Positions 435-14,970 of a stretch of DNA of 64,000 bases are shown one piece after another (positions within the stretch are counted from its first letter, which is position 1; each line of letters begins with the position of its first letter). Under the pieces are notes generated by a model, which did no database searches, was not told the DNA's origin, and saw only the letters and a program-made list of their open reading frames with translations. The DNA comes from Amia ocellicauda (lineage: Eukaryota > Chordata > Actinopteri > Amiiformes > Amiidae). Made by a program: the position numbers and the translations under genes. The DNA is taken from NCBI RefSeq assembly GCF_036373705.1, contig NC_089850.1, positions 21,001,256 through 21,065,255 on the forward strand, written 5' to 3'.

Positions 435-3400
435 CTACAGCTTGGGGATCCCGGCGACGATCTGTGACTCGATCCCGCAGTGGTTCTGCCCACGCAGGAA
501 CCTGAAAAACCCTGGGGACAGTGAAGCACAGGTGTTTAGCACAGCTGTGGGCAGATCTGGCCCCGGAGAGTCACCGCTCTGCAGTCTGCAGTCTTACCGT
601 CTTCACCCCAATCGGTGTTCCAGGAGTTGGCAGCCAGCCAGTATGGGGTCCCGTTCTCCTCCCCCCAGCCTAGAATCTTGATGGCGTGTCCCCCCACTGC
701 AGAGCCAGTGACATGCCGATACACTCCTACAAGGGGGAGAAACAAACAAAGAGGGTGGGGGGGGAGATGTTGTCAGCCCTTCCTGAATCAAAACAGTTTT
801 ACTCCACAGCCACTTACAGTTACTACTTTCAGGCAGACTGTACGCAGCTCTGGTCCAGTCCAGTCTAGTCCAGTTTATGTGTTGAACCATCAGCACCTCA
901 AGAAGGGAGATAAACTGGTCCAGTTAAGCCCAATTAGGAAGTGACGGAGGTCCTCAAAAGTTGAAGGTTTGAATGAAACCCTACAGATACCATGCAGTTG
1001 ACCACCATGACTACAGATGTGCAGCTTCCTTTTGGGGTCATCACAAGGGAGTGAAAAGGGTCACTCACCTGACTTGTACATGAGGAAGTCCTCGTACACT
1101 GTGAACGCCCCCTCCACAGGGCCATTTGTGTACAGCTCAGACATGATCTGCTCCACCTGGGAGGGAACACTGTAGGCATTCTTCCCTGCACATGAGAGAT
1201 GGAGAAAAACAGGTGAAACAACCACTAAAGACTTCGGAGAGATTTGCCCTTAAGAAAAGAAGTGGAACTAGAAGAAGCTAGAGATTCTGTATGAGAAGCA
1301 AAGGGTGGAGAACACAGACAGGGTACAGCTGCAAAGATAAAAAACATCAGACCAGTGTACAGAGAGGGAACAGTAGAGTACAGGATTGCTGCAGCGTCCT
1401 TTGACCAATCTGTTTTACAACCATAGTAAGGTTTAGAGCAGCATGACCAAGGGGATCAGCAGGGGGCACAGTATCTTACCATAGTGTTTGTCCAGCTGGT
1501 AGGTAGGGGTGTAGCCATCCTCACATTTGTTCAGGCAGGGGGGTGTGTGTTCTCGATCCCTGCTGCAGGGGGGCCGAGATCCAATCACATGGTGCTCGCA
1601 GGGGGGGATGCTGTAGGGCTGGCAGCCTGCAGACAAAAGAAACAGACGGGAACAGCTTCTCATCCAGGGATTCCTGCTTTTCATTCATCCTAAACCTCAA
1701 CCCAGTACTGTACTTTTAAATGTTAATTCTTTAAATGATAAGGAACCTCCATCAAAAAATGTACAACCACTGGTGCAGTCTCTCATTCAATTGATTCAGT
1801 AGTCTATGGGAGGATTCCTTGCAAGACCACTAAGTAGGCCAGCCCCCTTTTCTATCCCTACCTCCAAAATGTGCACAAACAAGCGATGTCACAGACTCCT
1901 GCCACAAAGCAGCTGAGCAGGAGCAGCATAGACATCACCCTCAAGTCCTTGCTGTGATATTCACCCACGTGCGAGTCGTAGAGCCCTCCTGACACCAGGC
2001 CCTGCTCATACCAATACATCCAGGCAGCCGAGGGATTTCCTCCGTAACACCTGCAAGAGAAGCGAATGGCAACTGAAGTTGCCGTGGGGGGACAGAGGCA
2101 GAACTGACCTCTGACTTGCACTGCCCAATCACACCATTCATTCTTCATGCGGATTAAATGCATGGACTAAGTGCGACTTACTCCCTTCAATGAACCCCAT
2201 TCAGCATTAACAAACACTCAGGCGGCAGGTAAAAGGATTTTGTCAGACACAGAGATCCTACGCAACTTAAACAGCACCCTTCTCAATGCAGATGTGTACA
2301 AAAATCTATACAAATGAAGCACCATACAATCCAGAAGAAAGATACTTTTGCTCGAGAGCCATCTTCAGGTTTCATAGCAGGGTCAATGACCCTGTGGTTT
2401 GCATAACAACACCCCCTTCCTCTCCAAGCATGCCCTGCACTCTCACCCATGGCCGCACGAATCACAGCAGGTCAGAAGGTCTTCAGAGGAGATCTCTACG
2501 CTGATCTTGCCATTGGAGTGAATACACAGACGATCAGATATCGCCTCTGCTGCCCCAAAAGCCTGCACAACACCACAAGTGAGACATGCTCAAGACACAT
2601 GGACAGAAACACTCACAGACCAAGACCAATACTGTAGAAAAGTGCAGATCTACCACAGGTCCAACACAGCCCAGGCAGGCACAGCGATTTGAAAAATCCA
2701 AGAAGTTGCATAATGGACCCGGATTGGAAATAACTGTATAGACTGATTAAGATTTGGATGAGGTTTTATACTGAACTGCCAACTCAAATAGCTTAGTATG
2801 AAATGCAAGTGGTGTTGCTTGCAATGCCTCATTGAATATAAAGGGACATTGCAAAAGCTTTTGGGTGTTTAACATAACTTTCCATGGCCATCTCCGCTCA
2901 TTTATAACTGCTGCCGTTCCCGAAGAGAAAGGAGGGGAATTCCCAGAGGAAAGTCTGAGATACAGCTGAAGTTGTTGAATACATAGATTTACATCACATT
3001 TACAGGAGACAGGAGGGGAATTCCCAGAGGGAACACCGTCAGAAATCTGAGATGTTGTTAATTACACCATTTAATGTAAATGTTGAATACATACATTTAC
3101 ATCACATCTACAGCAAAAGCAAAATGCAGTCAGTCATCTATAAAGAGTGGAGTATAAAAGGAAGCAAAACAGGTCTCACCCAGCAGGATCCACAGGAGCC
3201 CTGGTCTCGGATCTCCTTGAGGGTGGGGCAGTTGGGCCACTTCTCCAGGGGATCAAAGCTCTGGGGTAGCTTGATGTCATCAGCGTACTGCACCCTGCAG
3301 CGTGGGAGGAGCAATAATAATAATAATAATAATTACGCTTCTATAGCGCTTTTTTATCCTAGACACCAAAGAACTATACATGTTATGGGGTTCCACCTCC

Positions 3401-12300: not shown

Positions 12301-14970
12301 GAGCAGGAGCAGCATAGACATCACCCTCAAGTCCTCACTGGGGCACTCACCCACGTGCGAGTCGTAGAGCCCTCCTGACACCAGGCCCTGCTCAGACCAA
12401 TAGTTCCAGGCAGCCGAGGGATATCCTCCGTTACATCTGCAAGAGAAGTGCACCAACTTAAACATTCCCGCCGTGGGGGGGGGCAGGAGCAGCGCAGACC
12501 TCCGACACGCACTGCCCAATCACACCACTCATTCGGATTAAATGGACCAAGTGCGACTTACTCCCTTCAATGAATCCCATTCAGCATTAACAAACACTCA
12601 GGCGGCAGGTAAAAGGATTTTGTCAGACACAGAGATCCTACGCAACTTAAACAGCACCCTTCTCAATACAGATGTGTACAAAAATCTATACAAATGAAGC
12701 ACCATACAATCCAGAAGAAAGATACTTTTGCTCGGGAGCCATCTTCAGGTTTCATAGCAGGGTCAATGACCCTGTGGTTTGCATAACAACACCCCCTTCC
12801 TCTCCAAGCATGCCCTGCACTCTCACCCCATGCCACATGAATCACAGCAGGTCAGAAGGTCTGCAGAGGAGATCTCTACGCTGATCTTGCCATTGGAGTG
12901 AATACACAGACGATCAGACATCGCCTCTGCTGCCCCAAAAGCCTGCACAACACCACAAGTGAGACATGCTCAAGACACATGGACAGAAACACTCACAGAC
13001 CAAGACCAATACTGTAGAAAAGTGCAGATCTACCACTGGAATTACAGCACCACCACAGGTCCAACACAGCCCAGGCAGGCACAGCGATAGAAAAAGTTGC
13101 ATGATGGACCCGGATTTGAAATAACTGGATAGACCGATTAAGATTTGGATGAGGTTTTATACTGAACTGCCAACTCAAATAGCTTAGTATGAAATGCAAG
13201 TAGTGTTGCTTGCAATGCCTCATTGAATATAAAAGGGACATTGCAAAAGCTTTTGGGTGTTTAACATAACTTTCCATGGCTATCTCCACTCATGTATAAC
13301 TGCTGCCGTTCCTGAAGAGACAGGAGGGGAATTCCCAGAGTCACACCATTAAATGTAAATGTTGAATACATACATTTACATCACATCTACAGCAAAAGCA
13401 AAATGCAGTCAGTCATCTATATAAGAGTGGAGTATAAAAGGAAGCGAACAGGTCTCACCCAGCAGGATCCACAGGAGCCCTGGTCTCGGATCTCCTTGAG
13501 GGTGGGGCAGTTGGGCCACTGGTCCCGAGGGTCGAAGCTCTTCGGTAGCTTTATGTCATCAGCGTACTGCACCCTGCAGCGACAGAGGAGGAACGTGACA
13601 CAGAACTGCATCAGAGGGCAAGAGGACCGCCGTGAGTGTGATCAGCATCAGATCAAAACTGCTCCAACGGAGAGGAGACCTCATGAACAGTTATTTATGA
13701 CCTAGTTGAAGCTAAAATTTAAAACGTCATTCCTCTGAAGGGGCATTTAAATAAACCTGGGAAGTGTGTGTACAGGGGGGCAGCACAGCACAGCAAATGG
13801 AAGGTTCCAGAACCTGTACAGCGCTCTAACTCACAGGACTAATAAATGTGATACTCCGTCTGCTGTACTGTTAAATCACACAGTTTCTTCAAATTAGGAA
13901 GCAAAAGACAAACCCCCCCAACAAACACAAAACATATATACATCTGTGGTTCTTCAATAAAGCACAGATTTACAAAGTTCACACAAAACACAGGAGGCAA
14001 TCTGACAATCAGCAGCTAACAAACATCAACAAATCCTGGCAGCATTTTGCTCACAAGTCCTGCAGCACATGTGCTCAATCACACCCTGCCCGTCACCGTG
14101 AGGAGTGTGCCCTCCAGCTCTCACACTCACATCACTGGCAGTCTGGGGCCCTTCAGCAGAGTCCCACACAGAGTCTTCACATAGCTGAAGTCAGCATTGG
14201 GGAAATTGTGTCCAGCCTGGAGACAAAGAAGCCAGTGAGAGAGAGACATGGACCAGTTCTGCATGTCATTGGAATATCCAACACAAAGCAGCCAATCAGT
14301 CTTAAAACTGCACACAGCACATACACATTAGCTAGCTAGATGTCCAGAAAGCATCCTACACTCATTCGGGAAAGGGGAGACTGGGGAATAGGATTTAAAA
14401 CATGCTGGAACACATTTTAGAGAAAAATAAAGTATGTATGTGTGCCCTCCCTACAGGGAAGTGCGACGCAGCATCTGAACAAGGTGCTGGAAATGCATGG
14501 TTTCCCCTGACCTACTGTAGCGGGACAAGAGACTGTTAACAGACTTCCCATTCACTGTGGCCAATGTTCCAGTGGAGCTTTTGTTCAACACAAAGTACTC
14601 CACATTCTCTCCTGAACACACAAAAATGTACAGTTACATCCCTCTTGCCTGAACTTATAACAATATCTTCCAGGTTTACACTGCAACTTTGAAGCCATAC
14701 AAATGAATGAAAATGCCATTACAATTTCACATGCTAGTTTCCATTTTGCCACAAGATTAAACCATACAGGGAAGCAAATCAGAACACTTCTGAAAGACGA
14801 GAGATCTGCTCAGGTGCGTCCGATTTCAGGAGTCTGTTCCACTTACCTTCCAGGTGGTGTTAATCTTGTTGATGTAGTTCACAAGCTCAGGGGACAGGGG
14901 TGAGAGGTGTGGCCGGGCTCTCGACCCACACACAGCCGCCAGAACGCACAGCACAGCCAAACGCCACATC
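9395..14970 (-). CDS. ctsb: Cathepsin B, upstream tandem copy (copy B), 9 coding exons
   Basis: This copy is the canonical cathepsin B: a lysosomal endopeptidase and dipeptidyl-carboxypeptidase. Exons are 14847-14970 (ATG at 14967-14969), 14131-14216, 13459-13573, 12827-12942, 12351-12436, 11887-12033, 10322-10438, 9902-10030 and 9395-9471 (TAG at 9395-9397). Every exon has exactly the same length as its copy A counterpart, giving 331 residues. Catalytic Cys107 (CGSCW), His277 (GGHA) and Asn297 (NSW) are present. So are the CNGG motif, the occluding-loop residues CEHHVNGS with the mature N-glycosylation sequon at Asn190, and TGEGGDTP as in mammals. The mature chain should begin near Leu79 (KLPKSFD). 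A non-coding leader exon lies near 17501-17570, giving a leader intron of about 2.5 kb. The intron between the exons at 11887-12033 and 10322-10438 carries a 1.17 kb palindromic transposon that copy A lacks. Confidence 0.95.
10640..11806. mobile_element. Long-palindrome non-autonomous DNA transposon in a ctsb copy B intron
   Basis: The left end (10640 onward, CTCAGTTGAGTTTTTGGGAA) is matched in inverted orientation by the right end at 11806. The match continues inward for roughly 400 bp per arm, for example GGATTGCAGCCAGAGGTCTT on the left against AGACCTCTGGCTGCAGTCC on the right. A loop of about 300 bp (near 11086-11395) holds a tRNA-B-box-like stretch on the minus strand (GGTTCGAGTCCCC). 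Copy A has an uninterrupted site here, so the insertion followed the duplication or was lost from A. No transposase is present and I could not define a clean target-site duplication. Confidence 0.75.

Follow-up and report, generated by a model that had tools for sequence, protein, structure and literature searches.

A tandem pair of cathepsin B genes in Amia ocellicauda, homogenised at the 5' end by gene conversion and differing in the active-site cleft and occluding loop

The window analyzed here, a 64,000-nucleotide stretch of the Amia ocellicauda genome (NCBI RefSeq assembly GCF_036373705.1, contig NC_089850.1, positions 21,001,256 to 21,065,255 of the forward strand), carries two cathepsin B genes in tandem on its minus strand, copy A at 435-5065 and copy B at 9395-14969. 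Each gene has nine coding exons (996 nucleotides, 331 amino acids) and an intact reading frame. GT-AG borders were found at 16/16 introns (eight per copy), and the alignment of the two copies has no gap in any of the nine exons, so that there is no coding indel between them. Both products contain the Pfam domains Peptidase_C1 and Propeptide_C1 (copy A 214.4 and 65.3 bits, copy B 223.1 and 65.3 bits, against cut-offs of 20.7 and 32.7), and human procathepsin B was matched at 544 bits by copy A, less than the 584 bits of copy B. A tblastn search for a third cathepsin B copy within the window returned the two gene copies and three chance-level matches (E 4.8-9.1); the window begins just 434 bases past the copy A stop codon, and the array could extend beyond it. 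The exons and the extent of the duplicated units are as follows, with catalytic, cleft and loop residues (Cys29, Glu245 and so on) in human mature numbering and other residues counted from the start codon.

4943..5065, minus strand: copy A coding exon 1 (signal peptide and beginning of the propeptide, with the start codon at 5065-5063; 1/123 bases differs from copy B)
4175..4260, minus strand: copy A coding exon 2 (0/86 bases differ from copy B)
3180..3294, minus strand: copy A coding exon 3 (N-terminus of the mature enzyme; residue 107 is the catalytic Cys29; high-divergence patch at residues 80-88)
2447..2562, minus strand: copy A coding exon 4 (residues 143-147 at the exon end form a high-divergence patch)
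1965..2050, minus strand: copy A coding exon 5 (CYGGN against CNGGY in copy B; residues 72 and 75, human numbering)
1480..1626, minus strand: copy A coding exon 6 (occluding loop; SRDREH against TGEGGD in copy B; IGS against the NGS sequon in copy B)
1069..1185, minus strand: copy A coding exon 7
598..726, minus strand: copy A coding exon 8 (carries the catalytic residues His199 and Asn219)
435..511, minus strand: copy A coding exon 9 (includes the stop codon; Gln where copy B has Glu245)
14847..14969, minus strand: copy B coding exon 1
14131..14216, minus strand: copy B coding exon 2
13459..13573, minus strand: copy B coding exon 3
12827..12942, minus strand: copy B coding exon 4
12351..12436, minus strand: copy B coding exon 5
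11887..12033, minus strand: copy B coding exon 6 (near-canonical occluding loop with one residue more than the human loop)
10322..10438, minus strand: copy B coding exon 7
9902..10030, minus strand: copy B coding exon 8
9395..9471, minus strand: copy B coding exon 9 (includes the stop codon; Glu245 kept)
234..6365, unstranded: copy A duplicated unit (extent of detectable similarity to copy B)
9177..16855, unstranded: copy B duplicated unit (extent of detectable similarity to copy A)

A sequence-only reading of this DNA had claimed that residues 1-80 of the two products are identical and that about 30 of the remaining residues differ. The identity proved exact, with three silent differences beneath it (codons 17, 77 and 80), and 30/251 remaining residues differ, all of them at residues 81-323. 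The same reading had allowed that gene conversion could lie behind the 5' identity, and this is strongly supported by mismatch-free tracts that span exon and intron alike:

4063..4542, unstranded: main gene-conversion tract, copy A (480 aligned bases with zero mismatch to copy B at about 14019-14498; covers exon 2 completely and introns 1 and 2 in part)
4938..5190, unstranded: second near-identical tract round exon 1, copy A (two mismatch-free runs, 151 and 77 aligned bases long, with one silent difference between them; 24-column gap upstream of the start codon)

The longest mismatch-free run was 480 bases, against a maximum of 111 across 2000 shuffles, so that these tracts, introns included, far exceed the length given by the divergence of the pair. 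A two-state divergence model (hidden Markov model, HMM) fitted better than a single rate (log likelihood -1331 against -1583, a gain of 252), with the reservation that its high state (39%) also absorbs parts of introns 2 and 6 that align poorly. Exons 1-2 and the DNA on both sides of them have been homogenised by interlocus gene conversion, and elsewhere the pair forms a mosaic in which some patches diverge little and others strongly. Residues 1-69, encoded by exons 1-2, are identical within DNA-level blocks reaching into introns and upstream sequence, whilst residues 70-80 belong to exon 3, outside the main tract, and hold two of the silent differences. The identical signal and propeptide region is mostly explained by gene conversion and, given this mosaic, requires no special constraint.

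Divergence was 6% in intron 1, 3, 8 and 6% in introns 3, 4 and 5, and 21, 15 and 19% in introns 6, 7 and 8; intron 2 reached 29%, a figure that includes stretches that barely align. Within the exons, high-divergence patches cover residues 80-88, 143-147, 188-190 and 197-205, together with stretches of exons 8 and 9 (305-323); in the occluding loop, 10 of 26 aligned bases are mismatched. Exons 5 and 7 lie entirely in the HMM low state, and introns hold high patches too.

Exon 8 carries a 122-base mismatch-free run (603-724) between flanking introns that are about 16% divergent (29/186 bases); it may be a short conversion tract or reflect strong constraint. Intron 6 of copy B holds an insertion of about 1.17 kb (10639-11807) without counterpart in copy A. 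Nested imperfect inverted repeats, with arms of 18-67 nucleotides that are 81-100% complementary, occupy most of its length, and it looks like a foldback-type transposable element.

We then compared the residues of the active site. As had been noticed from the sequence, Cys29, His199, Asn219 and the loop histidines His110 and His111 are present in both copies; so are Asp22, Arg116 and Asp224. Copy A departs from copy B, human and rat cathepsin B by Glu245 to Gln, Asn72 to Tyr, Tyr75 to Asn and Asn113 to Ile, and the residues common to these three but gone from copy A include Asn72, Tyr75, Gly121, Gly123 and Glu245. The Asn113 change abolishes an N-X-S sequon, a site that is glycosylated in human cathepsin B. 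In the loop, S-R-D-R-E-H replaces the T-G-E-G-G-D of copy B; positions 121-124 read R, D, E, H in place of the GEGD motif, with an extra Arg before the E whose placement is arbitrary. At the floor of the S2 pocket, copy B has the acidic residue at 245 (Glu) and copy A does not (Gln). By ancestry copy A counts as a cathepsin B, whereas by the acidic residue at 245, to which a study by Hasnain et al. (1993) is reportedly devoted, it does not. Replacements were enriched at the loop, residues 71-77 and residues 243-246 taken together (10/34 sites against 20/219 other mature sites, p = 0.002), a test whose site sets were picked after the differences were known and whose loop component is weakened by a silent excess there.

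Published work gives these positions a functional meaning. Asp22, Arg116 and Asp224 anchor the occluding loop, and the human, rat and bovine enzymes all share an unvarying GEGD, whose glycines allow Glu122 to flip (PMC2882330). In other cathepsins B, how substrates carrying Arg at P2 are cleaved depends on residue 245 (PMC7054455; PMC10920296): enzymes with Ala or Leu there fail on Z-Arg-Arg-AMC (PMC7054455), and AtCathB2 with Glu introduced at 245 cleaves it better (PMC10920296). We infer that copy A would encode a working, lysosomally targeted cysteine protease. With the triad and the loop anchors present, it probably retains an anchored loop and dipeptidyl carboxypeptidase activity. With Glu245 and the 113 sequon lost, residues 72 and 75 altered and GEGD replaced, it should no longer prefer Arg at P2 and should process such substrates poorly; differences are also predicted on the primed side, along the edge of the loop that faces the active site, and in how inhibitors bind.

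Rates of replacement and silent change were estimated for residues 81-331. Counting by NG86 gave dN 0.059 and dS 0.158 (replacement and silent divergence; ratio 0.37), and maximum likelihood (ML) gave a ratio, omega, of 0.32 (likelihood ratio test against 1, p = 0.0001), a signal that comes largely from copy B; across analyses the pairwise ratio was 0.30-0.37. Ratios above 1 were sought by exon and by sub-region, and no supported case was found. Exon 5, with five replacements and no silent change, has an unbounded ML ratio, but counts only 28 codons (p = 0.14), and exons 4-6 taken jointly gave omega 0.56 (p = 0.19 against 1). The nine replacement and five silent codons previously counted by hand in exon 6 (1480-1626 against 11887-12033) are there as claimed (replacement codons 178, 190, 197-202 and 205; silent codons 188, 189, 193, 203 and 204). 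That raw count is no evidence for dN/dS above 1, because silent codons are raised in the occluding loop too: 5/23 against 17/230 other mature codons (p = 0.037), beside 7/23 against 23/230 for replacements (p = 0.010). For exon 6 overall dN was 0.085 and dS 0.217, and for codons 181-207, the loop, dN was 0.144 and dS 0.383 (standard error 0.171). Given this raised silent divergence, the loop patch consists in part of divergence that is old or was imported.

Replacements were polarised with two protein chains, human 1pbh_A and 1mir_A, the latter taken as rat cathepsin B (it bears Ser at position 29). Both outgroups assign 17 of the 30 differing sites to copy A and two to copy B (p = 0.0007); one outgroup assigns two more to A and one to B, three sites are split and five match neither. 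When one agreeing outgroup suffices, the count is 19:3 (p = 0.0009). At the protein level, the replacements that can be polarised thus arose mostly on copy A, with copy B near-canonical. A nucleotide outgroup was sought in the viral_contigs and genome_contigs collections, which yielded only three loci of 37, 25 and 24% identity, unusable for codon polarisation, and nothing from a related fish.

Upstream, the duplicated units match to about 1.3 kb (copy A) and 1.9 kb (copy B) from their start codons. Each gene also has a CpG-enriched stretch about 2-3 kb upstream of its start codon:

7001..7750, unstranded: CpG-enriched candidate promoter, copy A (CpG observed/expected 0.77-0.91; GC only 0.35-0.42)
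17001..18000, unstranded: CpG-enriched candidate promoter, copy B (CpG observed/expected 0.76-1.06; GC 0.43-0.48)

No similarity between these two stretches was detected, and copy A may have its own, possibly acquired, candidate promoter and an expression pattern of its own.

Taken together, these results are probably best read, with some reservation, as a gene-converting tandem pair in which one member, copy A, is a second working cathepsin B with altered specificity. A CTSB gene beside squalene-synthase and GATA-family genes would have been duplicated in tandem; the 5' part (exons 1-2 and flanks) has been homogenised by interlocus conversion. Copy A would have taken most of the replacements whilst copy B stayed near-canonical; in copy A, Glu245 and the 113 sequon would have been lost, the cleft altered at 72 and 75, and the flexible GEGD exchanged for an arginine-containing segment. 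Because they share the propeptide, the two zymogens should be handled in the same way.

The branch estimates, the stop-codon expectation and the upstream sequence weigh against a working copy A, as does one feature of the indel test. With replacements split 19:3 and silent changes evenly, a split that assumes equal silent rates since no nucleotide outgroup was found, the branch ratio is 0.11 for copy B, which differs from 1 (p = 1e-5), and about 0.68 for copy A, which is not distinguishable from 1 (p = 0.25). These counts do not separate copy A from neutrality, and therefore a pairwise ratio below 1 is by itself no proof of constraint on it. The probability of meeting no stop codon under neutrality is 0.05-0.20, so that missing stops are weakly informative. 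Nothing similar to the CpG-enriched region of copy B was detected upstream of copy A. The missing coding indels argue against decay better than the missing stops: 5.5-7.9 would be expected on copy A in 753 coding bases under neutrality and none was observed (P = 0.004-0.0004), the expectation being drawn from intron gap rates that include poorly aligned stretches, with half of the intron gaps assigned to copy A. The sequence-only reading had favored a functional and diversifying enzyme over decay. Its functional half is supported by the lack of indel or splice loss, indels fewer than expected and a pairwise ratio below 1; strict diversifying selection is not shown, since the dN/dS above 1 that it named as support was not borne out pairwise or on the copy A branch. 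Its other proposed support, changes clustered on copy A in the mature domain, was found both in the 17:2 split and in the post hoc enrichment at cleft sites.

An alternative that we regard as possible, with real doubt, is neofunctionalisation guarded by selection, as in the opsins: conversion would run gene-wide, but converted exons that erase the new specificity would be purged, leaving divergence peaks at functional residues, a signature described in PMC3924837, with a second case in PMC3728101. Exon 4 fits, differing at 7/116 bases against 1/200 in its flanks (p = 0.0044, uncorrected, in one of nine exons; widening the flanks to 150 and 200 gave p = 0.024 and 0.045), and the HMM high patches within exons 3, 4 and 6 that encode residues 80-88, 143-147, 188-190 and 197-205 are flanked by low stretches. 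The other eight exons, however, are not above their flanks (one-sided p 0.71 or higher, flank 100), and exons 4-6 together (28/349 bases) do not clearly exceed introns 3-5 (64/1195, p = 0.07). Neither the low state of exons 5 and 7 nor the high patches in introns suits this model. A general excess of exon over intron divergence was tested and failed, with circular-shift p = 0.26 for the exon 4-6/intron 3-5 block and 0.64 gene-wide. In its fullest form this would make copy A a neofunctionalised enzyme without Arg preference at P2 and with a remodelled loop, its cleft exons kept distinct by selection against ongoing conversion and its identical prepro region kept for like targeting and activation of the zymogens; we put this forward only tentatively.

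It is unlikely that copy A is under relaxed constraint or in early decay, drifting to a pseudogene and intact by short-lived luck. Its branch ratio, not distinguishable from 1, the appreciable chance of meeting no stop and the loss of Asn72, Tyr75, Gly121, Gly123 and Glu245 would all suit decay, but the indel deficit does not, and introns, frame and all splice sites are intact, the triad, loop histidines and salt-bridge residues are kept, and the changes are enriched at cleft positions. Less likely again, the patches could have entered copy A by short conversions whose donor was a third and more divergent cathepsin B gene outside the window. The tight patches do mix silent and replacement changes, as the 26-base loop patch and the raised dS of codons 181-207 illustrate; against this, tblastn found no third copy within the window. 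An assembly artefact, with alleles or a repeat wrongly placed in tandem, would account for the long identical tract but is very improbable, as introns 6-8 differ by 15-21%, too much for alleles, farther upstream regions lack detectable similarity and a 1.1 kb insertion is confined to copy B.

To the right of the pair, squalene-synthase exons lie on the minus strand (PF00494 at 23615-23869; a match at 24945-25190 scores below cut-off), and the open frame at 23014-23646 in this region has no Pfam match. GATA zinc-finger exons at 31412-31618 and 32050-32265 and a GATA-N exon at 38823-39383 follow, all on the minus strand, and XK-related exons lie on the plus strand at 60143-60481 and 61918-62526. 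CTSB, FDFT1 and GATA4 are also neighbors on human 8p23.1. A tandem repeat array (32255-33115) begins at the margin of the open frame that encodes the GATA zinc finger (32050-32265). A reverse-transcriptase remnant (PF00078) occupies 20391-20870, and the adjacent 20970-21419 has a direct copy, 94% identical, about 24 kb away at 45336-45775; these are probably a long interspersed nuclear element (LINE) and a truncated second copy. A weak match to a Sleeping Beauty-type transposase helix-turn-helix at 60817-61095 falls below the curated cut-off.

Both genes resemble vertebrate CTSB (human, rat, bovine), of peptidase subfamily C1A, in prepro-mature layout, the Cys-His-Asn triad, His110/His111 and Asp22, Arg116 and Asp224. 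Of 251 aligned mature sites, 196 (78%) are the same in copy B and human, and 181 (72%) in copy A and human; the copy B loop (TGEGGD) is one residue longer than the human one, and copy A lacks the Glu245, GEGD, Asn72, Tyr75 and Asn113 sequon of the vertebrate enzymes. In its non-acidic S2 residue at 245, copy A is like Trichobilharzia TrCB1.4 and TrCB1.6, TbCatB and AtCathB2; of these, TrCB1.4 and the G/C mutant of TrCB1.6 showed no Z-Arg-Arg-AMC cleavage (PMC7054455). In those enzymes, which come from parasites or plants, residue 245 is Ala, Leu or Gly, whereas copy A has Gln and sits at a vertebrate CTSB locus, and it keeps Cys29, unlike wild-type TrCB1.6. With 30/331 residues different, including several in the cleft, this natural pair offers a ready test system for control of specificity and inhibitor binding by the S2 pocket and occluding loop.

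Two cathepsin B genes in a fish are also known from black rockfish, where CTSBa and CTSBb have Ka/Ks of 0.13 and 0.14; that pair is ascribed by its authors to whole-genome duplication, whereas the present one is tandem and converting (PMC9409823). Cathepsin B genes had the lowest Ka/Ks among all cathepsins in that study, and a copy lacking Glu245 and GEGD is therefore unexpected. No earlier report of a tandem gene-converting vertebrate cathepsin B pair was found in a limited full-text search, by titles and abstract openings. The exon-peak signature, not significant overall here, sets the pair apart from the primate red/green opsins, but it shares with them tandem paralogues, introns homogenised by conversion and retained coding differences (PMC3924837), and as such it is a compact case for divergence under gene conversion.

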